From Christiangramia sabulilitoris (GTDB lineage: Bacteria > Bacteroidota > Bacteroidia > Flavobacteriales > Flavobacteriaceae): a stretch of DNA of 64,000 bases. Where the stretch lies: positions 407,500-471,499 of the forward strand of contig NZ_VHSF01000003.1 of the NCBI RefSeq assembly GCF_007050985.1, written 5' to 3'. The notes under the pieces are model-generated. The model did no database searches and was not told the origin of the DNA. It worked only from the letters and a program-made list of their open reading frames with translations. Each line of letters starts with the position of its first letter. The first letter of the stretch is position 1. The position numbers and the translations under genes were made by a program. Shown piece by piece: positions 1,864 to 32,546 of the stretch.

Positions 1864-3126
1864 TTATTCTGTTCTTAAAGCATCTACGGGTTTCACCCTG
1901 ATCGCTTGTTGCGCCGGTATAAGCCCGGCAAGCAATCCTGAAATAATTAAAATTGAAAGAGCGATCATAACCACTCCAAGGTTAACGGAAGGGTTAAGGA
2001 ACATCATTTCTGAAGTATCCATTCCACTCAACTGAATATTCACCAGCCAGATCACCGCCGTAGCAAGTATAATCCCCGCCATTCCAGAAATAATGGTTAA
2101 AAAAACAGACTCCATTAATATCTGCCCCCTAATAGACCATGGGGTTGCACCCAGGGCACGTCGCACTCCTATTTCATTTGTTCTTTCTTTGACCACGATA
2201 AGCATAATATTACTAATCCCGATAATTCCCGAAAGTAGAACCAGCACCCCTACAAAATAGGCCACCGCTTTTAGCGCAATAAAAAGCCCATTCACTTTGC
2301 TGAATTCCTGGTAAAGGTCAAAGTTCCCGATGGCGCGATCGTCTTCGGGATGTATCGTATGCCGTGTTTTCACGATATCTATGATATTTTCTTTCAACTC
2401 GGTTATAGAATATCCATCCCTGGCAGTTATCGCCATCCAGCCTACTTTATCCCCTCTGTTAAAAGCCTGGGAAAATGCCGTAAAAGGAACGAAGATCTGT
2501 TTTTGCCCTTCCTCTATGTCTCCACCCTGACTTTTTTTCTTATAGGTACCAATTACCATAAAATTCACTCCATTAATTTTAATGTAGGTTCCTAAGGGAT
2601 CTTCTCCTGAATCATATAAGGTCGTTTTTACTCCCTCGCCGATGACTGCCACCTTGCGTTTATCGTTAATGTCTGAATAATTGATAAAACGTCCGGTGGT
2701 GATATCCATAGGCTCCTGCTGAATGATCTCAGGATAATCTCCATAGACATTAAAAGCACCTGTATTTAGACCTCGAACCACGTTATTTGCACCACCAAAA
2801 CCTCCTAACTGATTTCTGGGAGATACAAATCTTAATCCGGGAACCTGATCTTTTATAGCGGTGACATCATCCATATCATAGCTAAAACGACGCCCCTTAG
2901 GCATTCCCTTATATGGTTTGGAAGCAACCTGGGTCCACATGAACATGGTATTGGTTGCGATCCCGCTAAACCCTTGCTTGACACCATTTTCCAGACCCTT
3001 TCCTGCAGCCAGCAGGATCACCAGAATAAATATCCCCCATAATACCCCGAAAGCAGTTAGAACAGTCCTGAACCAATTGGCGGTCAGGGCTTCAATGATT
3101 TCACTCCAACGATCTCTGCTAAACAT
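1864..3126 (-). CDS. MacB-like ABC transporter permease (FtsX family), second copy
   Basis: The 420-residue protein has the MacB architecture without a fused ATPase: one N-terminal transmembrane helix (about residues 18-42), a large periplasmic MacB-PCD domain, then three C-terminal helices in an FtsX domain containing the conserved KERTNEIGVRRALGATPWSI loop that contacts the ATPase. It is paralogous to the gene just upstream, which ends one base before it begins, so the two probably form a heterodimer driven by the ATPase at 4365-5066. Such pumps act from the periplasm in a mechanotransmission manner; the cargo (peptide, lipid or antibiotic) is not predictable. Confidence 0.88.
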   Translation of the reverse strand: MFSRDRWSEIIEALTANWFRTVLTAFGVLWGIFILVILLAAGKGLENGVKQGFSGIATNTMFMWTQVASKPYKGMPKGRRFSYDMDDVTAIKDQVPGLRFVSPRNQLGGFGGANNVVRGLNTGAFNVYGDYPEIIQQEPMDITTGRFINYSDINDKRKVAVIGEGVKTTLYDSGEDPLGTYIKINGVNFMVIGTYKKKSQGGDIEEGQKQIFVPFTAFSQAFNRGDKVGWMAITARDGYSITELKENIIDIVKTRHTIHPEDDRAIGNFDLYQEFSKVNGLFIALKAVAYFVGVLVLLSGIIGISNIMLIVVKERTNEIGVRRALGATPWSIRGQILMESVFLTIISGMAGIILATAVIWLVNIQLSGMDTSEMMFLNPSVNLGVVMIALSILIISGLLAGLIPAQQAIRVKPVDALRTE

Positions 3127-5469: not shown

Positions 5470-6009
5470 CTAATAATATGGCATCATAAACAGGAATACC
5501 AGAACTCCTGTAACTGCTACATATAACCAAATAGGGAACGTCCATCTGGCAATTTTCGCATGCTTTTCATATTCCCCCTTTAAACCCCTGTACATGGTAA
5601 AAAGAACTAACGGAACTATTATTCCCGAAAGTACGATATGCGTAATGAGAATAAAGAAATATACATACCTGAACATACCTTCGCCCCCGTATGGGACCGG
5701 CTCATTACTGATCTTGGATAACACATAACTTACCAGAAATATTACAGAAAGTCCAAAAGCCGCGATCATGGTATTTCTATGCTGAATATATTTCTGAACA
5801 CTCATAAAAAAATAACCAATGATCAATAACACGGCAGTAAGAAAATTCAAAATACCATGAAACAATGGAAAGGTAATCGCCTCAGCACCAAAAATATTAT
5901 ATCGCTCCGGGAGCAACATAAGCACAAGAACTATTACAGGAACCGCAATAGATAAAGCTATAATAACCGGAACGGCTACTTTGTCTGAAGTGTTTAAAGT
6001 CGTTTTCAA
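5470..6009 (-). CDS. DUF420 family membrane protein
   Basis: The 179-residue protein has about five hydrophobic helices and matches the DUF420/YozB family, which is found beside cytochrome oxidase and SCO genes in many bacteria. Conserved-looking polar residues lie in helices 2 to 4 (FHGILNF, QKYIQHRN, ITHIVLSG), including histidines that could bind metal or heme. Its start overlaps the SCO gene stop by 4 bases. The biochemical role of the family is not established; involvement in oxidase assembly is inferred from the neighbourhood. Confidence 0.8.
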   Translation of the reverse strand: MKTTLNTSDKVAVPVIIALSIAVPVIVLVLMLLPERYNIFGAEAITFPLFHGILNFLTAVLLIIGYFFMSVQKYIQHRNTMIAAFGLSVIFLVSYVLSKISNEPVPYGGEGMFRYVYFFILITHIVLSGIIVPLVLFTMYRGLKGEYEKHAKIARWTFPIWLYVAVTGVLVFLFMMPYY

Positions 6010-24861: not shown

Positions 24862-25788
24862 CTATTCTTTTAAAAAGCTGATATTTCTTTTCAAGCCTTC
24901 AAACTTGGTACGTTTCACGGCAGATTTGCGGAATATTTCATTAAAAGTTTCCCTGGTAATCTCTTCCCAGTCCTTCTTTTCATTTTCCAGTAGATCTGGA
25001 TGGGGATTAAAAAGTGGTTCGTTATGGGGTTTAGAAAAACGATTCCAGGGGCATACGTCCTGGCATACATCACAGCCAAACATCCAGTCGTCGAACTTAT
25101 CCTTATATGATGATGGCAGTTCGTCCTTCAGCTCGATGGTAAAATAGGAAATACATTTACTGCCGTCCACCTTGTAGGGTTCTACAATGGCTTGGGTTGG
25201 GCAGGCATCTATACAGGCCGTACAGGAACCGCAATGATCGGTCACGGGGGTGTCATATTCCAGGTCCAGGTCTACGATAAGTTCTGCAATAAAATAGAAA
25301 GAGCCGGTTTTCTTTGACAGTAAATTTGAATGCTTACCAATCCAGCCGAGTCCGCTTTTTGCAGCCCAGGCTTTATCAAGGACAGGAGCCGAATCTACAA
25401 ATGCCCGCCCATGAAAATCACCAATTTCATCCTGAAGGCTGGATAATAATTCTTTCAGTTTATCCTTGATCACAAAGTGATAGTCTCTGCCATAGGCATA
25501 CTTACTGATCTTATATGCATCTTTATTCTGAAATTCATGCGGATAATAATTCAGCAGTAAGGAGATCACACTTTTAGAGCCGGGCACCAGTTTGGTAGGA
25601 TCCAGACGCTTATCGAAATAGTTTTCCATATAGCGCATTTCCCCATGCATATTATTATTCAGCCAGTTCTCCAACCGCGGCGCTTCCTCTTCCAAAAACT
25701 CAGCTTTAGAGATTCCGCAAGAAAGAAAGCCGAGGCGTTTAGCTTCGGCTTTGATAATTTCTGAATATTTATTCGCTGTTGTATTCAA
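24862..25788 (-). CDS. queG: epoxyqueuosine reductase QueG
   Basis: The 308-residue protein shows the QueG pattern: cobalamin-binding N-terminal domain with [20 protein letters not shown], and two 4Fe-4S cluster motifs, [16 protein letters not shown] and [11 protein letters not shown]. It reduces epoxyqueuosine to queuosine at the wobble base of tRNAs for Asp, Asn, His and Tyr. The chosen start is a TTG at 25788; no in-frame ATG exists close upstream and the next residues match the family N-terminus. The C-terminal HEAT-like region of long forms is absent, as in many Bacteroidota. It may be cotranscribed with nothing, as the malic enzyme has its own promoter. Confidence 0.95.
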
Positions 25789-25832
25789 AATTGAACTTTC
25801 AGCAGCTAATTTAAAGAAATAATGTCTGGATT

Positions 25833-26393
25833 TTAATCTTCTTCGAGCAGAACTGGATTATATGCTGCAAAAACACCATCTGGATTCTCTAAACCTACCC
25901 AGGCGTGCAAAGTCCATCCTCCAGGACCCGCATAGCAGTTTACACTCCACTCATCCTGCCCTCCCAGAAATCCTTCTGGAGCATCAGGATATTCACTAAG
26001 GTTAAAACAATCTGGAATTACATACAGATATTCTGCAGCAACAAATTGCATATCACCATTCTCGTCCGGGTGATAAACAAGAATTTCGGGTTTTAGAAGA
26101 TCGAATTGCATATCGACATAATCGAATTTGGCATAATGGATACCCATTCCGGAAACTAATGGACTTACGGGAACATACCCCTGGGCAATCGCGACCTCAA
26201 AATTATGAAATCTCCTCATGGCCTTAGTTAGGATTTCAATTTGATCCTCCCAGCTCTCTGCTTTTTCGAGTTTGAAATCATAGGTTTCCAGAGTATCGGT
26301 TTCTACTAATGGATCATTGCTACAAGAGAGAATTGCAAAAAATAATGTAAGTGCCACAGCACTTTTGAAAATTTGGTTGAACTGATTTTTCAT
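25833..26393 (-). CDS. putative lipoprotein of unknown function
   Basis: I do not recognise a characterised family. The 186-residue protein has a lipoprotein signal (FFAILSC, cysteine near residue 24). The middle has a helix around [20 protein letters not shown], and the end has [23 protein letters not shown], a pattern I associate with uncharacterised secreted proteins in several phyla. It follows the cupin gene by 26 bases and could be cotranscribed with it under the control of the divergent TetR protein. Confidence 0.75.
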
Positions 26394-26419
26394 TTCTATA
26401 GGATTGGTTAATAAATTAT

Positions 26420-26860
26420 TTACTTATTCATTTGAATCTTCATATCATAATCAGCAGCGGTTTCCAGAACCTGCCGTAAAATTTCCGGTGAAACAGATTT
26501 TGTCATCGCTTCAGTTTCATTTTCAGCAATCCCATACTTTTCAAAAAATTCAGAAAAACCTTTTGGACTATGTATATTTACCCATTTGCAAACCTTAGAA
26601 CCTGAATTTTTAAAAGTATGCAAGGTCCCTGGCGGGATATCCACCGTTTCTCCCGTTCTAATTTTCTTTGATTTGCCATTAATGATGAAATCCATTTCTC
26701 CTTCTATGATATAAAAAGATTCATGATACTTTTCGTGAAGATGTGGTGGTGGACCGGGAACATCTGTCTGCGATTCTCCAATGGCTAGATCATAATCGGC
26801 AGATATTTTTTGCGGAGCAACCTTGTGTCCCAAAACCCACATTTTCAATACATTATTCAT
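26420..26860 (-). CDS. cupin-domain protein
   Basis: The 146-residue protein carries both cupin motifs: PPHLHEKYHESFYIIEGEM (two histidines and a glutamate as metal ligands) and PPGTLHTFKNSG (third histidine). It is a single-domain cupin with a short C-terminal helical tail. The substrate is unknown. It is transcribed away from a TetR-type regulator across a 72-base spacer with two matching palindromes, so it is probably the regulator's target. Confidence 0.88.
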   Translation of the reverse strand: MNNVLKMWVLGHKVAPQKISADYDLAIGESQTDVPGPPPHLHEKYHESFYIIEGEMDFIINGKSKKIRTGETVDIPPGTLHTFKNSGSKVCKWVNIHSPKGFSEFFEKYGIAENETEAMTKSVSPEILRQVLETAADYDMKIQMNK

Positions 26861-26863
26861 CTT

Positions 26864-26881
26864 ATGAGATTTTTGTCTCGT
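26864..26881. promoter_or_regulatory. putative TetR operator 1
   Basis: ATGAGATTTTTGTCTCGT is an imperfect palindrome four bases from the cupin ATG. It shares 14 of 18 positions with the palindrome at 26917-26934, consensus ATrAGAnnTTTGTCTCrT. Position next to the cupin promoter's -7 box fits repression by the divergent TetR protein. Confidence 0.55.
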
Positions 26882-26911
26882 AAATATATTTTTAAATTTT
26901 ATAATTACAAA
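26881..26911 (-). promoter_or_regulatory. possible cupin promoter
   Basis: On the minus strand TTTG (26908-26911), a 19-base spacer and TATATTTA (26881-26888, 7 of 8 to TAnnTTTG) form a plausible Bacteroidota promoter immediately before operator 1. Confidence 0.4.
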
Positions 26912-26916
26912 ATTTT

Positions 26917-26934
26917 ATAAGACATTTGTCTCAT
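26917..26934. promoter_or_regulatory. putative TetR operator 2, overlapping the regulator's start codon
   Basis: ATAAGACATTTGTCTCAT contains the perfect inverted repeat AGACA-TT-TGTCT and matches operator 1. It runs into the ATG of the TetR gene at 26933, which suggests autoregulation by blocking initiation or elongation. Confidence 0.55.
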
Positions 26935-27523
26935 GAAAGGGAAGTATTTAGGAACAGGCAGAAGAGATCAAAAGCTAAAAACAAGAGATAGAATTCTTGC
27001 AAGCACCCAGGATATAATTGGGAAGAAAAAAGAGTTTACTCTGGAAGATGTTGCTAAGCAAGCAAATATTTCCCGTGCTACTATTTACAGGTATTATTCA
27101 AGCATCGATATTCTTACTGCAGAAGCGGTTCTGGATCTCAACACAAAAAGTTCTGAAGAGATTATTGAAGAAGTGAAAAATCTCAATTTAAAACAGGCTA
27201 TTCTGGCTATTCAGGAATACTACAATAATTTAACGATAGATCATGAAGCTGGTTTTAGAAAATATATGAGTGTGGTATTAAATGCCGAACAAAGCACGAA
27301 AATGAGAGGAGCCCGTAGAAAGAAAACTCTTCTAATGCTACTTCAGGATAGAAGAAAAGATATGAGCCCTGAGCAGATGGAGAAATTAGCAAACATGGCT
27401 ACCATTTTAATGGGAATCGAACCATTTGTGGTCACGAAAGACGTTTGTCATCTTGATAACGAGCAATCAAAGGAAATTCTAAGCTGGAGTCTTGACAGGA
27501 TTCTAGATACAGTGCTTACATAG
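26933..27523 (+). CDS. TetR/AcrR family transcriptional regulator
   Basis: The 196-residue protein has the TetR helix-turn-helix at about residues 17-62 (RDRILASTQDI, FTLEDVAKQANISRATIYRYY) and a divergent, all-helical C-terminal ligand domain. It is the only plus-strand gene in this section and is divergent from the cupin gene. The ATG lies inside a palindromic operator and no ribosome binding site precedes it, so translation may depend on an AT-rich leader or be leaderless. The ligand cannot be predicted; the controlled set is probably itself plus cupin and lipoprotein. Confidence 0.9.
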   Translation: MKGKYLGTGRRDQKLKTRDRILASTQDIIGKKKEFTLEDVAKQANISRATIYRYYSSIDILTAEAVLDLNTKSSEEIIEEVKNLNLKQAILAIQEYYNNLTIDHEAGFRKYMSVVLNAEQSTKMRGARRKKTLLMLLQDRRKDMSPEQMEKLANMATILMGIEPFVVTKDVCHLDNEQSKEILSWSLDRILDTVLT

Positions 27524-27546
27524 CTGGCTTACCCAGGTTCGAATTC

Positions 27547-27701
27547 AATATTGCATTTTTAATTTTCAGCGTTATCAATGCTTTAATCTCTATCTCTTTT
27601 TTAACAGTAAGGAATTTATAACGAGCTAACAGCCCGGTAACGGCGACAATCATCTTGAACCTGTGCTCCTATAATCTACAAAAACAATAGAGGTCATCAA
27701 A
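27547..27701 (-). pseudogene. decayed cytochrome P450 3' end, copy 2 (most distal)
   Basis: Translated on the minus strand, 38 codons ending at 27547 align without gaps to the last part of the intact P450 at 30412-31755, with about 24 identities (for example ARYKFLTVKKEIEIKALITL against RRYKIIPVNKEIEIKPLITL). Upstream the frame passes an in-frame TAG and a degraded heme-loop in which a TGT cysteine codon is still visible. The conserved FxxGxRxC pattern is otherwise lost. It abuts the 3' end of the TetR gene. No complete P450 gene accompanies it. Confidence 0.75.
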
Positions 27702-27736
27702 TAAAGGTTAATAAGTTAAAGGTTCGATGTAATAAA

Positions 27737-27760
27737 GAATGCCCTGAACTCAGGGCATTC
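27737..27760 (-). terminator. hairpin after lipoprotein gene, shared copy A
   Basis: GAATGCCCTG-aact-CAGGGCATTC is a perfect 10-base-pair stem followed on the minus strand by TTTATTAC. An identical hairpin lies at 29258-29281 after a different gene; the sequence around both is about 90 bases of near-identical DNA. Confidence 0.75.
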
Positions 27761-27780
27761 TAACTATTAACTATAATTTT

Positions 27781-28461
27781 TTAATTCACTGGAGAGAAAA
27801 TAGCGACTTCAATATCACCACATTCTCCCATCTCATCCGGAATTTCGGTAAAAGGTGGAAATTCAAAAGGATTATCACAACCTCCCTCGTAACTACCAAT
27901 CTGGTCAGATATCATACCTGGTCTCGCCGGACCGTGACTTCTTAAAACCAAATGGATTTCTGAACTAAAGGTTTTGCCTTGCTGGAGTCCTCCCGCATAT
28001 GGTAACCCAAACAGGTCATTGATTGTACCTGAATCATCCCCTACATTTAAATGTCCTCCAAAATAACCTTTCCCGCTACTGCCTACCACGTGCCCGGTGC
28101 CGGTCATTACTTCAACTTGAGTGAGATCTGCCCTCGCAAAATCGGTGTCTATACAGGCTCCTGGAATAGCACATTCCTGAGGGTTATTCCATACTACAAG
28201 CCAAACAGTATAAGCATAACCCGGCGTAAGAGCATTAGATTTATAGGTATAGGAAAAGCCCTTTTCATTTCTAAGTAATGTCGCCGAGCCTACTACCTCG
28301 CCTAAAATAGGATTAAATACATCTACCGTACTTCGGTCAGGTTTCATTTTTTCATAGGTGAGATCAAAATCGGAAATCTCTCCATCGCTCATGGCATCTT
28401 TCTCGCATGAACAATACAACATTAAAATAACGCAGCTTAAAAATTTAATTAAAGTTTTCAT
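27781..28461 (-). CDS. putative lipoprotein of unknown function
   Basis: The 226-residue protein has a lipoprotein-type signal (ILMLYCSC, cysteines at residues 18 and 20). The rest is beta-rich, with GYAYTVWLVVWNNPQECA followed by a cysteine-containing loop, TGTGHVVGSSGKGYFGGHL, and HLVLRSHGPARPG. I have seen this layout as a widespread uncharacterised secreted family but cannot name a function. Its last codons (SPVN then stop) and the hairpin behind them are shared with the unrelated gene at 29302-29859. Confidence 0.75.
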   Translation of the reverse strand: MKTLIKFLSCVILMLYCSCEKDAMSDGEISDFDLTYEKMKPDRSTVDVFNPILGEVVGSATLLRNEKGFSYTYKSNALTPGYAYTVWLVVWNNPQECAIPGACIDTDFARADLTQVEVMTGTGHVVGSSGKGYFGGHLNVGDDSGTINDLFGLPYAGGLQQGKTFSSEIHLVLRSHGPARPGMISDQIGSYEGGCDNPFEFPPFTEIPDEMGECGDIEVAIFSPVN

Positions 28462-28866
28462 TTTTTATAATTTTGGTTAATAACAATTTGTAAATCAACT
28501 ACTAAATGAGATTATAAGAAGGTATAGAAAACAGATACAGGAGGGGACCGGCACTTAAGAGGAGTCGTTCAAACTTGATAAATTTCTAAATTATCTTATG
28601 TCGCAGGTAGAATCATTTCAGTTATATGATGCTTTGACCCTTTCCTTTCCTACAACTATCAGGGAAATCACATAAGCTCCATCATGATATAAGGTTTTAG
28701 CGCAGCAAAACAATCCATCCTTATTAATTTTTTTCTTAGATCAATACTCCATTTTCCATGGTTTTATAATTTCTGGGTAGAAAAAAATTACTATTTAACA
28801 CAGCAAGGAATGGCCATTATCATGGTGACACCTATTTGAATGAAGATCTTTTTTCCAGATCTTTCA
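28462..28866. other. non-coding spacer upstream of the lipoprotein gene
   Basis: About 400 bases, AT-rich, with no convincing open frame on either strand. The part next to the gene should hold its promoter. A hairpin-like GAAGATCtttttttccAGATCTTTC occurs near 28842-28863. Nothing else can be named. Confidence 0.45.
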
Positions 28867-29039
28867 GATTTAACTTATAAAGCCAATAGGTGAAAAAATC
28901 AGGTAGGTAGGAAACCCTGTTTACAAGGCAGGTTCTATTAATAGAGACTTAGAACCGAAGTACGAAGTACGGCAAATTCAACGCGAAAAAAAATAGGGGT
29001 AAACCAGCTATTTGGTATAAAACCTACTTTAATGCTATA
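28867..29039 (-). repeat. direct repeat of the region downstream of the P450 gene (copy 1)
   Basis: This block matches 30241-30411, the sequence just after the stop codon of the intact P450 gene, almost base for base with a few indels (for example the shared AACCAGCTATTyGGTATAAA and GAGACTTAGAACCGAA segments). With the P450 fragment at 29040-29235 it forms one continuous duplicated block of about 370 bases. Confidence 0.85.
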
Positions 29040-29235
29040 TTTACTGGCGTTTCTCTTTTCAAATCGTAAAACAGCATTCTTTGGTTTTAAAGTTATAAGC
29101 GGTTTGTTCTCGATTTCTATAATAATGGTAACGATTTTATAAAGAACTTATAGCCCGGTAATGGCGACAATCTTCTTGAACCTCTGCTCTTATAATCCAT
29201 AAAAACGATAGAGGCCATCAAATAAATGCTAAAAA
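29040..29235 (-). pseudogene. decayed cytochrome P450 3' end, copy 1
   Basis: On the minus strand the last 25 codons read KPLITLKPKNAVLRFEKRNA, nearly identical to the C-terminus of the intact P450, and its stop codon has become AAA. Further upstream the codons still align in frame (FKKIVAITGL against FEMIIAVAEI) but contain two stops (TAA), and the heme-ligand cysteine codon is replaced by TAT. It lies after the hairpin that follows the SnoaL-like gene and before the duplicated downstream block. It is clearly dead and clearly derived from the neighbouring P450 or a close relative. Confidence 0.85.
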
Positions 29236-29257
29236 GTTAAAGGCTCGATGTAATAAA

Positions 29258-29281
29258 GAATGCCCTGAACTCAGGGCATTC
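29258..29281 (-). terminator. hairpin after SnoaL-like gene, shared copy B
   Basis: Same perfect stem GAATGCCCTG / CAGGGCATTC as at 27737-27760, followed by TTTATTAC on the minus strand. It should end transcription of the SnoaL-like gene. Confidence 0.75.
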
Positions 29282-29301
29282 AAAACTATTAATTACATTT
29301 T

Positions 29302-29859
29302 TTAATTCAATGGAGAATGATGTTCGTGAACTATTTTCCATTCACCTTTAGTTTTCACAAAAAGTAACGAGGTTTGTTCTCTAACTTGAGCAAGGTTATC
29401 TCCAAACATCAACTGGAAATCAGCGTGAAATGTCATAATAGCCACATTTCCATTATAGACACCAATCTTTATGTCCTGGGCGTCCAATTTAATTACCTCG
29501 GTTACCGAGCCAAAAACGGCTCGTTCATAAGCTTCATTTTCTTCAGCGCCATTTCTAAGCTCACCATTTTTGAATTCGGTAAATTTTGGACCATAGGCAT
29601 GAAAAGAGATCAATTTATCAATATCTCCCTCAATAACACTTTCCTTAATTGCTTCCCATGTTTCCAGAACTTCTTGCTGGGCCTGGGGAAAAGTCTGGGA
29701 GGTTACAGCAGATCCCTTGTCTGATGTTGATGAAGCCATCGATGCAGATGCATTTTTCGAAATTAAATTGGAATCATTTACATTTTCATCATTTTCTGAA
29801 CATCCAACCAGGAATAAAAAGGATGTAAGAATTACGGCATATACTCGTGTTGATCTCAT
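29302..29859 (-). CDS. lipoprotein with a SnoaL/NTF2-like domain
   Basis: The 185-residue protein has a lipoprotein signal (FLFLVGC, cysteine near residue 20), a serine-rich linker and an NTF2-like fold from about residue 60: VLETWEAIKESVIEGDIDKL, FHADFQLMF, and the closing TSLLFVKTKGEWKIVHEHHS strand pair. Such domains bind small hydrophobic molecules or act as ketosteroid-isomerase-like enzymes or stress proteins; the activity here is unknown. Its last codons (SPLN-stop), terminator and downstream DNA are shared with the unrelated lipoprotein gene at 27781-28461. Confidence 0.82.
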   Translation of the reverse strand: MRSTRVYAVILTSFLFLVGCSENDENVNDSNLISKNASASMASSTSDKGSAVTSQTFPQAQQEVLETWEAIKESVIEGDIDKLISFHAYGPKFTEFKNGELRNGAEENEAYERAVFGSVTEVIKLDAQDIKIGVYNGNVAIMTFHADFQLMFGDNLAQVREQTSLLFVKTKGEWKIVHEHHSPLN

Positions 29860-30240
29860 AATATTTATATTTATTTGAATATTAATTTTTTAAACTTGAT
29901 TGATTTCTTCTGACTTTACAATTAAAAGGAATTCATATAGCCAATCGTTTGGAATAATTTTAAGGCGTTGGTGTTAGGAGTATTAAACTTACACCCTAAA
30001 TTAGTATGATCACGGCACGCCTTTTATTGGACAGATAAATCCAGAGAAAGTCTCTATACTATCTCATTTATTCAAAATTGTTCTGGTGTATTTACCAGGT
30101 TTTCAGAAAACACACGTCAGAGCTTTCTTCTGATAAAAACTTTTGTCATAGAAAGAATTATTGAACAGGGACTGCTCCTTTTCAGGAATTACTTTTACTG
30201 GCTATGCTATCTATAAAAGATATTTTATAAAGATCTCCTT
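29860..30240. other. non-coding spacer upstream of the SnoaL-like gene
   Basis: About 380 AT-rich bases with no credible gene on either strand. It does not resemble the spacer at 28462-28866, although the sequences on both of its sides are duplicated. It should contain the SnoaL-like gene's promoter. Confidence 0.45.
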
Positions 30241-30411
30241 GATTAAAATTAAGGGCCAAGGGAAAAAAAATCAGGCGGGTAGGAAAACCTGTTTTAAGAC
30301 AGGTTCTAACAATAGAGACTTAGAACCGAAATACGAAGTACTGCAAATTCAGCGCGAAAAAAAATGGGGGTAAACCAGCTATTCGGTATAAAACTTACTT
30401 TAATGTAAATA
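30241..30411 (-). repeat. direct repeat downstream of the intact P450 gene (copy 2)
   Basis: This block follows the P450 stop codon and matches 28867-29039. It contains a stem AACCTGT / ACAGGTT at 30286-30305 that may act as a terminator for the P450 gene; the same hairpin is seen with changes in the other copy. Confidence 0.85.
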
Positions 30412-31755
30412 TTAACTGCCGTTTCTCTTTTCAAATCGCAAAGCAGCATTCTTGGGTTTTAAAGTTATAAGCGGTTTGATCTCGATTTCCTTATTAACCG
30501 GGATGATCTTATACCTGCGAATGATTTCTGCCACGGCAATGATCATTTCGAACATGGCAAAATTATTACCTATACATTTTCTGGGGCCGGCGCCAAAGGG
30601 GAAATACTGGGAGGAAAATTTTTTCCCGCCATCAGCGAACCTTTCTGGTTTAAAATCATCGGGATCTTCCCATAATTCAGGATGGCGATGAACTTCATGT
30701 AAGGAAAACAATAGATTTGACCCAGACTCAAAATACTTACCTTCAAATTCATCAGGCTCCAGATTCACCCGGTCTATAAAATAAGCCGGCGGATACATCC
30801 TCATGGATTCTTCTATCACCTGCTGGGTTATTTTCGCTTTGGTAACAAAACCCATTAGATCTGTTTCTTCCCGTTCCAGGATTTCTATCTCATTAAATAT
30901 ATTCTCCTGCCATACCGGATTTAAAGCAAGTAATTGAGCTGTAAAGGTCAATGAATTTGAAGTAGTTTCATGCCCCGCAGTAAAAAGGATAAGGATCTCA
31001 TCGATGAGTTGCTCTTCATCCATAAAATTACCATCATCATATTTCGCTTCCAGGAGCATATCCAGAAGATCATCATAACGTTCTCCGGAACTTCTTCGCT
31101 CCTGCACCATAGCTTTTAAAATTGTCCGGGCTTCCCTGGTCAATTTAAGATAACTTTCTATCTTCCCGCTTAGATTGAACCACCAACCCAAATAGGGCTG
31201 TCGCAGCTCCTTTACCAGCATCTTCTGGGTCTCTTCGGTAATGAATTGTAACCTGTTGATCTCCTCTTGGTTCGCTGCACTACTAAAAAGAGATTTTACC
31301 ACGGTTTGAAAGGCAAGATCGTTATACACAGGAAAGATATCCAGTTCTTTTCCCGGGGTTATCCGGGAATATTCAGACAGGATCGCTTGTTTTATGGAGT
31401 CCATTAAATTCGCCAGCTGTTTTTTGTGAAATGCCGGCTGGATGAGTTTTCGTTGTCTTTTCCAGTGCTCCCCTTCTGAAGTTAAAAGTCCTTCTCCAAC
31501 ATACTTCACCAGATCTTTAGTCTGGATCTCAGATTTCACATAATTTCGCTGGTTCTTCTGGAGTACATACTCCACCAGGCCTGCGTCGCGAGAAAATATC
31601 ACAGATTTATTAAAGCCAATGTTCAGCCGGAAAGTATCCCCTTTCTCCTCGAAATTACGATGATGAAAAGGCAATGGATTCTTTAAGATATTAGCAGAAT
31701 GCATTAAGAATTTGAGAATAGATACTTCGGGGATATTATCTTCTGTTTTTTTCAT
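30412..31755 (-). CDS. cytochrome P450
   Basis: The 447-residue soluble protein has all P450 landmarks: I-helix oxygen-binding FTAGHETTSN near residue 262, EESMR (ExxR) near residue 317, PERF near residue 370 and the heme loop FPFGAGPRKCIG near residue 388 with the thiolate cysteine. The overall pattern resembles CYP102-like/CYP4-like bacterial fatty-acid or terpenoid hydroxylases, but the substrate is not predictable and no redox partner gene is adjacent. Degraded copies of its 3' end lie at 29040-29235 and 27547-27701. Confidence 0.95.
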   Translation of the reverse strand: MKKTEDNIPEVSILKFLMHSANILKNPLPFHHRNFEEKGDTFRLNIGFNKSVIFSRDAGLVEYVLQKNQRNYVKSEIQTKDLVKYVGEGLLTSEGEHWKRQRKLIQPAFHKKQLANLMDSIKQAILSEYSRITPGKELDIFPVYNDLAFQTVVKSLFSSAANQEEINRLQFITEETQKMLVKELRQPYLGWWFNLSGKIESYLKLTREARTILKAMVQERRSSGERYDDLLDMLLEAKYDDGNFMDEEQLIDEILILFTAGHETTSNSLTFTAQLLALNPVWQENIFNEIEILEREETDLMGFVTKAKITQQVIEESMRMYPPAYFIDRVNLEPDEFEGKYFESGSNLLFSLHEVHRHPELWEDPDDFKPERFADGGKKFSSQYFPFGAGPRKCIGNNFAMFEMIIAVAEIIRRYKIIPVNKEIEIKPLITLKPKNAALRFEKRNGS

Positions 31756-32055: not shown

Positions 32056-32103
32056 AAATTACAGCTGTCACACTGTCCCGAGGAGTCGGGAGCAGTCGAA
32101 GTG
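32056..32103. repeat. 48-base repeat with stem, copy A
   Basis: This 48-base unit ends one base before the stop codon of the GIY-YIG gene and is repeated at 32639-32686 with eight differences. The central stem reads TCCCGA / TCGGGA here and TCCCAA / TTGGGA in the other copy, so both arms changed together. Confidence 0.8.
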
Positions 32104-32104
32104 C

Positions 32105-32422
32105 TTATTCACCTGGATTATATTTATAATGCGTCGCATTTCTACACTCTGCCAGCATTTGCAACATATCACAATCACCCATTATTAAAGCCATCTTTTT
32201 TGATCTGGTCCATCCCTTGATTTGTTTTTCGAAATAGATAGCCTGCAAAACATCATTAAATTCCTCGTAGAATTTTAGGCTTATTGGCCTCCTTCTATAT
32301 GTATAACTTTGCTTATCTAAACCATCCTTATGTTCATTTATTCGTCTTTCCAGATCGTTAGTAATTCCCGTATAATAGGATTTATCTGAACATTTTAATA
32401 TGTAAACAAAATACTTATGCAT
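32105..32422 (-). CDS. GIY-YIG nuclease family protein (YhbQ/UPF0213-like)
   Basis: The 105-residue protein is a stand-alone GIY-YIG domain: VYILKC and YYTGITNDLERRINEHK give the two tyrosines, the glycine and the catalytic arginine, and YFEKQIKGWTRSKK gives the metal-binding glutamate. No DNA-binding domain is fused. A C-terminal tail (LAECRNATHY) is similar to tails I recall from Bacteroidota members. The gene is placed inside a cluster of short palindromic repeats, with its stop codon next to one. DNA cleavage is the family expectation; a cellular role is not established. Confidence 0.9.
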   Translation of the reverse strand: MHKYFVYILKCSDKSYYTGITNDLERRINEHKDGLDKQSYTYRRRPISLKFYEEFNDVLQAIYFEKQIKGWTRSKKMALIMGDCDMLQMLAECRNATHYKYNPGE

Positions 32423-32456: not shown

Positions 32457-32546
32457 AGAGGCTTCGACTGCGCTCAGCCTGACATACAATATAGATTTAT
32501 TCAATTATTCAAACCAACGAAATGCTAATTTAGGTTCAGCATGAGG
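32457..32546. repeat. palindromic repeats upstream of the GIY-YIG gene
   Basis: 32457-32484 contains GGCTTCGACTGCGCTCAGCC, a motif of a repeat family common in Bacteroidota spacers, and 32522-32546 is a partial ATGCTGAA-type unit. They lie within the 369-base spacer 32423-32791, where I see no gene. Confidence 0.7.

Follow-up and report, generated by a model that had tools for sequence, protein, structure and literature searches.

The locus described here lies in a 64,000-nucleotide stretch of Christiangramia sabulilitoris DNA (contig NZ_VHSF01000003.1, positions 407,500 to 471,499), called the window below, whose own numbering is used throughout. It holds an intact cytochrome P450 gene followed by two fragments of a P450 3′ end, copy 1 and copy 2, each preceded by an unrelated "cargo" gene. 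The genome is 3.2 Mb long, and its nearest named relatives belong to Salegentibacter and Christiangramia/Gramella. On the minus strand the order is RuvB, a GIY-YIG gene, P450, a SnoaL-like lipoprotein gene, copy 1, a spondin-like gene and copy 2; beyond copy 2 come a TetR gene on the opposite strand, a cupin gene, open reading frame (ORF) 186, QueG, malic enzyme and RuvA. The names P450, SnoaL, TetR, cupin and GIY-YIG follow from Pfam matches; the others are what we take the genes to be (RuvB, QueG, MaeB, RuvA, "spondin"). The features are the following.

30412..31755, minus strand: intact cytochrome P450 gene, 447 amino acids (aa; PF00067, E 5.2e-69), in the conserved context RuvB-P450-QueG
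30412..30493, minus strand: part of the P450 3′ end common to copy 1 (from about E-I-E-I-K-P to the stop), the putative newcomer tail
30217..30411, minus strand: D0, spacer 3′ of the P450 stop, which recurs after copy 1
29302..29859, minus strand: cargo 1, SnoaL/NTF2-like lipoprotein gene (PF13474, E 1.2e-12)
29181..29316, minus strand: T1, hairpin, terminator-like flank common to T2, starting in the last codons of cargo 1
29040..29180, minus strand: copy 1, mosaic P450 tail fragment, copy-2-like upstream of 29129 and current-P450-like downstream of 29121
28843..29039, minus strand: D1, repeat of the spacer D0
27781..28461, minus strand: cargo 2, probable secreted protein or lipoprotein gene, matching no Pfam or NCBIfam family
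27660..27795, minus strand: T2, second copy of the hairpin, terminator-like flank
27543..27659, minus strand: copy 2, 39 in-frame codons of a probably older P450 3′ end (FKMIVAVTGLLARYKFLTVKKEIEIKALITLKIKNAILN), adjoining the TetR stop
26933..27523, plus strand: TetR-family regulator gene, convergent with P450 (PF00440, E 2.3e-6)
24862..26860, minus strand: cupin, ORF186 and QueG, the right-hand side of the insertion hotspot described below, with QueG as its conserved anchor

The P450 tail is conserved across 23 loci, and both fragments are recognised by it. A profile built from the P450 tails of 22 other genomes, with the window's genome excluded, was searched over the six-frame translation of the window. 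The intact P450 scored 144.8 bits, copy 1 35.6 bits (29180-29052, E 2.5e-12) and copy 2 34.5 bits (27659-27543, E 5.4e-12). Across 50 order-1 Markov shuffles of the window no score exceeded 3.6 bits, and chance similarity was therefore rejected. An earlier note on this DNA had described the two fragments, correctly in that they are real; it had also given both of them stops, and about 170 bases of kept downstream spacer to copy 1. Copy 1 does contain a stop, but the P450-like stretch of copy 2 is free of them, the same-frame stop lying just upstream. The spacer is kept after copy 1, but further than had been said: copy 1 with D1 is 84% identical to the current P450 tail with D0 over 300 bp, to ∼195 bp beyond the stop. 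Taken together with T1 and T2, the flanks upstream of them, copies 1 and 2 are 82% identical over 244 bp (T1 versus T2, 89% over 144 of 146 bases), and this shared flank with its terminator-like hairpin, which the earlier note does not mention, begins inside the last codons of the two unrelated cargo genes.

The fragments are partial 3′ ends only, of differing history, and do not descend from complete P450 genes in tandem. Of 24 genus genomes searched, 23 gave a match, and each of these has a single P450 of the kind (the 24th, G019, is 73% complete and gave no P450). In G021 the gene is split over contig ends, and the second P450 of G010 is 29% identical and lies on another contig. With one such P450 per genome and no full-length tandem in the relatives, whole tandem genes were rejected as the source of the fragments, and the earlier statement that ordinary whole-gene duplication does not explain them is borne out. 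A repeated mobile sequence was rejected too, since the D and T regions match this locus only and nothing elsewhere in the genome. Across the 24 genus genomes, the D region gave D0, D1 and one 24-base match in G016; the other short matches were hits to G011 (38-40 bases) and an opposite-strand self-match of 26 bases at the hairpin. We take all of these to be chance or hairpin matches.

Copy 1 is a mosaic. Its upstream half resembles copy 2, and its downstream half, together with the spacer that follows, resembles the current P450. At 78 informative sites from 29205 downstream, the best split leaves 31 copy-2-like sites among 34 on the left (3 P450-like), and 39 P450-like sites among 44 on the right (5 copy-2-like). 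This score of 70/78 was reached by none of 20000 permutations. The switch lies between 29129 and 29121, i.e. between 30501 and 30493 in P450 coordinates, a few codons ahead of EIEIKP. The downstream half shares 53 of 60 bases with the host P450, the next best relative sharing 45. Copy 1 is thus a recombinant of the copy 2 type and the current tail, and no independent duplicate.

Copy 2 lies where an intact P450 gene ends in relatives. The window from 27597 to 25775 is colinear with C. sediminis (G016), where the interior of the intact P450 tail leads on to TetR, cupin, ORF186 and QueG, with 75% identity over 1839 columns. In 6 of the 22 relatives' loci (G012, G017, G014, G022, G016 and G015), a convergent TetR gene ends no more than 6 bp beyond the P450 stop. 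Identity to G016 on the copy 2 side is 79% for TetR, 79% for cupin and 82% for QueG, near the 82% of RuvB on the other flank, as expected of resident DNA. Since copy 2 stands beside TetR, where an intact P450 would end, it is best read as a displaced original: most simply, copy 2 would be the old tail of the gene and the current tail a newcomer. That this old tail belonged to the lineage itself is what we infer. The earlier claim that the P450's own 3′ end had been duplicated twice is wrong or at least incomplete, as copy 2 holds the position of an intact P450 end and copy 1 is a recombinant. The amino acids of copy 2 do not discriminate between sources (24 of 39 identical with the host P450, 25 with the best). 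A comparison of body and tail identities gave no clear donor for the window's own P450; the G020 row, at ∼30% identity with a frame problem in its P450, was dropped from it.

The block of TetR, cupin and ORF186 (25833-27523) is patchy on the genus tree and, where present, stands directly before QueG. This block may itself have been exchanged, or often lost.

A second species, represented by genome G007, is an independent instance of the window's layout. There the order is P450, an SCO4226/AraC-type gene, an FAD oxidoreductase gene, a tail fragment, and finally a stretch colinear with the end of the G023 P450 and its spacer. The fragment was located at L040:5761-5844 by the protein profile (i-E 3e-4) and at 5786-5847 by a DNA profile (E 3.2e-6). 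From the last ∼68 bp of the P450 to the fragment, G007 is 84.7% identical to a distant species, Gramella sp. AN32 (G002), over 3082 columns (∼3 kb). Between the same two genomes identity is 70.5% in the P450 body, 54% in the 67 bases before the switch, 79% in the tail and 80% in RuvB; it is 83% and 87% in the cargo genes, and, in the noncoding spacers, 87% after the stop, 89% between the two genes and 80% on the right-hand side. The flanking core gene thus carries signs of recombination, as the G007/G002 switch falls inside the P450. Since two spacers are above core-gene conservation beside a diverged P450 body, these values indicate the transfer of a segment that carried its own P450 tail, which would have left the older tail stranded on the far side. 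The other reference genomes of the body and tail comparison (G000, G004, G010) gave no clear donor. The tail, spacer and AraC gene common to G004 and G010 were rejected as evidence of transfer, because their P450 bodies are equally close. Three junctions, namely the left switch and right junction of G007 and the mosaic switch of the window, are all located at EI(E/D)IKP or a few codons from it.

In G023 (L038, oriented 2802-3022), the P450-QueG spacer gave two flanking alignments with G007, which has an intact NlpE/META-domain gene. Judged from these alignments, the spacer looks like an internally deleted remnant of that gene.

Both cases lie in an interval that is a hotspot of insertion. Among the 23 genus loci (22 relatives and the window), 19 are occupied, with differing cargo, and 4 have P450-QueG gaps of 15-220 bp; the gap ranges from 15 to 5464 bp overall, and 6 of the 19 occupied loci hold the TetR block only. 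The loci of G020 and G021 extend past the compared stretch, that of G021 being continued in L063, and the QueG of G002 is a weak partial match. Recurring cargo consists of SCO4226/AraC, SnoaL, di-haem peroxidase, FAD oxidoreductase, ScyD/E-type, spondin-like and cupin genes. Homologues of cargo 2 are found at the same hotspot in C. aestuarii (G001), G003 and L053. The contents appear scattered on a flanking-gene tree of 20 genomes, on which several nodes are weak and the window's genome is placed with a support of only 0.664. In Salegentibacter, a SnoaL gene occupies the gap at 4 of 5 loci, and one has a 3-bp gap. Outside these two genera, QueG lies at most 136 bp from the P450 stop in 53 of 64 loci, so that adjacency of P450 and QueG is probably ancestral. 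The remaining 11 comprise nine gaps of 454-5537 bp, L076 with a contig end after 799 bp, and L083 with no QueG in 10 kb. In 80 named loci, which include at least 8 genus genomes and exclude G007, no significant tail fragment was detected (best E 8.5), nor any further P450 tail within 10 kb downstream, or less where the contig ends. A literature search of titles and abstract openings found no paper on a P450/QueG hotspot.

Several side observations concern these genes. At L064, L089, L102, L115 and L122, the P450-QueG gap is taken up by di-haem cytochrome c peroxidase genes (PF03150 in all five); since these loci carry the labels Psychroserpens, Algicola and Arcticiflavibacter, the hotspot extends beyond Christiangramia. 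In L083 (Psychroserpens sp. SPM9), a reverse-transcriptase gene (PF00078, 12978-13808) lies past a peroxidase-like gene at this P450 end; with the small ORFs next to it, it is possibly a retron-type unit. On the RuvB side of the window's P450, a GIY-YIG nuclease gene of 105 aa (32105-32422) is flanked by inverted GCAGTCGAAG repeats, at 32092-32101 on the plus and 32462-32471 on the minus strand; two matches occurred in 0 of 100 shuffles. A longer form of the repeat has 14 genomic sites with at most one mismatch, 6 of them exact, against 0 in the control; GIY-YIG matches number 11 in the genome. This gene and its repeats may form a small mobile unit. In the Gelidibacter loci L093 and L120, a relative lies between P450 and QueG, i.e. 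on the opposite side of the P450.

The two cargo genes of the window join their common flank at nearly the same bases. Cargo 1 DNA is homologous to G002 from 29892 to ∼29312. Compared with G021 it matches closely up to TCTCCATTGAAT, then changes abruptly to the flank common to cargo 2. The spondin-like gene ends TCTCCAGTGAAT; at the junction, 11/12 bases are shared. A junction at such a microhomology would be as expected of homology-assisted illegitimate recombination. As for age, copy 1 with D1 differs from the current tail with D0 by 16%, and T1 from T2 by 18% with the fragment or 11% for the T part alone; flanking core genes differ by 18-20% from those of G016, G005 and G011. Noncoding DNA usually changes faster, so that repeats diverged by 16-18% suggest a second event later than the split from the sampled relatives. 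The divergence of copy 2 from the present tail is similar to that between tails of different species. Dating the segments by divergence, as had been proposed, therefore gave a ranking, with younger copy 1 units and a copy 2 at species-level divergence, but no date; that the second event post-dates the split is probable on this rough scale.

Displaced 3′ ends of the same gene are thus present downstream of an intact gene. We consider it fairly probable that they were left behind when DNA inserted at the 3′ end of a core P450 gene and displaced its tail. Such DNA, bringing a P450 3′ end homologous to the resident one together with a spacer and one or two genes of cargo, would recombine into the resident P450; the gene would be healed with the newcomer tail, and the resident tail pushed beyond the cargo, where it would decay. 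The old tail having been displaced without loss, insertion is needed and not replacement. In the window, a first unit [tail - D - cargo - T] would have entered, leaving copy 2 beside TetR. A later exchange between the two tails, with a sister chromosome or donor DNA, would have produced copy 1 and a second unit, and the cargo in one of the two units would have been switched at the 11/12-base microhomology in the genes' last codons. Both this order of events and the engine are deduced from the arrangement: crossing over would be due to host recombination of the RecA type acting on the conserved P450 3′ end, perhaps with circular intermediates as suggested for Rhs tip displacement, and not to a dedicated recombinase. 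One such scheme would account for the window and for G007 alike, and the tail repeats would let units leave again as circles.

Searches for a recombinase are in keeping with host recombination, with one reservation given below. Pfam was scanned with 76 cargo ORFs of at least 90 aa (105 aa in the extra loci), some opposite-strand ORFs aside; matches were listed fully for 21 ORFs, and for the other 55 as 25 of 26 matched families. Among the families listed there was no integrase, transposase or resolvase catalytic domain, and no relaxase or conjugation family. The genome's 4 Phage_integrase matches are all on other contigs. Families of the ComEC and DprA type are present in the genome, but also in 10 and 11 of 14 control genomes, respectively, so that they are weak evidence of natural competence.

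Several points weigh against displacement by host recombination. Tail fragments were detected in only 2 of the 19 occupied genus loci, which does not show displacement to be the usual route of entry. Neither 125 loci nor the 24 genus genomes yielded a donor for the D or T of the window, the 125-locus search giving matches between copy 2 and P450 tails and no others; that the window's tail is the newcomer consequently rests on synteny and the G007 parallel. Copy 2 DNA is just moderately nearer to other species' tails than to the present tail (69/117 bases with the host P450, rank 18 among 23 P450s; best 78/117), its upstream edge, at the FKM codons, lies ∼60 bases ahead of the other junctions, and ORF186 is 67% identical to G016, less than its neighbours are. 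The conserved tail measures only ∼65 bp and is ∼61-83% identical between species, which is weak for RecA recombination between distant ones, and the position of three junctions near one codon could also reflect a site-specific site. Short diverged homology and clustered junctions leave room for a site-specific mechanism. Finally, HTH_7 (helix-turn-helix of resolvases) was matched by 6 cargo ORFs and HTH_Tnp_1_2 by 1, though without a catalytic domain; the one HTH_7 match seen in detail overlaps TetR_N of a TetR protein, and the remaining ones are presumably of the same kind.

A site-specific mechanism would make the units decayed integrative elements, or elements like cis-mobilizable elements (CIMEs), with an attachment (att) site in the P450 3′ end and an integrase acting in trans; copies 1 and 2 would then be att sites. 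Such accretion would account for the three junctions near the same codons, and tandem units parted by gene-end repeats are the layout outlined for accretion of CIMEs and integrative mobilizable elements (IMEs) in PMC5704250. We find it improbable nonetheless, with no recombinase catalytic domain among the families listed, helix-turn-helix matches aside, no Phage_integrase match on the window's contig, and cargo made of ordinary genes. The tail repeats flank the units, but no exact core repeat was spotted by eye in the junction alignments, though decay could mask one. Import from the right, in which a donor [P450 tail - TetR - cupin - ORF186 - QueG] entered through QueG homology with copy 2 as a hitch-hiking foreign tail, is an unlikely account: the patchiness of the TetR block and the slightly greater nearness of copy 2 to other species' tails would suit it, but TetR, cupin and QueG are about as close to G016 as RuvB is, and in G007 the foreign-like identity is on the new-tail segment, not on the old-tail side. 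Plain tandem partial duplication, i.e. two downstream copies of the present P450 3′ end that arose without incoming DNA, through slippage or an unequal exchange, is very unlikely, for although the downstream half of copy 1 with D1 clearly has the same source as the current tail with D0, copy 2 sits at a P450-TetR junction known from relatives and is no nearer to the host P450 than to others, different cargo genes lie between the repeats, and G007 bears an interspecies signature.

Insertional displacement of the P450 tail invites a broader idea, which we put forward as a speculation with the odds against it: the P450 3′ end could be a reusable docking and excision site, with tail-spacer-cargo units circulating in marine Flavobacteriaceae as integrase-free circles that exit and enter via the conserved EIEIKPLITLKPKNA-coding stretch, and each entry healing the gene. 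If true, this would amount to integron-like cassette exchange powered by host recombination alone, in a housekeeping-type gene.

The arrangement shares features with several known systems. As in the tandem accretion outlined in PMC5704250, units are parted by gene-end repeats and an intact gene is restored, but neither an integrase nor an att core was found here. Homology-assisted illegitimate recombination, in the accounts of PMC2884548 and PMC3240628, likewise combines long homology on one side (here tail and D) with microhomology on the other (here 11/12 bases at the cargo 3′ end); our case is known from sequence alone, and tail displacement additionally needs a circle or a duplication. Many hotspots of gene turnover have no recognisable mobile elements, and Oliveira et al. 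2017 (PMC5635113) describe horizontal gene transfer there by exchange through flanking core genes. Small variable cargo between core genes (P450 and QueG), with no recombinase recognised, is common to those hotspots and ours; unlike them, breakpoints are visible here inside the core gene and displaced tails are left, where a simple double crossover would leave none. DNA entry into such hotspots has mostly been inferred from flanking-gene statistics, whereas here displaced tails and mosaic junctions keep a record of individual events and put the crossover within a core enzyme gene, in a short stretch that is conserved. For annotation, it follows that such fragments can be a gene's old ends, and not duplicates. 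The arrangement also resembles the displacement of Rhs C-terminal tips (Jackson et al. 2009, PMC2935791), for which circles carrying a piece of the conserved part of the gene were proposed to recombine with it, shunting the old end and the intervening genes downstream; the circular intermediate is a proposal in that account too. Both there and here, old 3′ ends lie silent downstream of an intact gene, with genes in between. Unlike in Rhs, the gene is a P450 (PF00067) whose tail is conserved across species, and the variable part is the cargo past the stop, not the C-terminal tip. Our reading would thus extend displacement of the Rhs type to an enzyme gene whose product stays intact.

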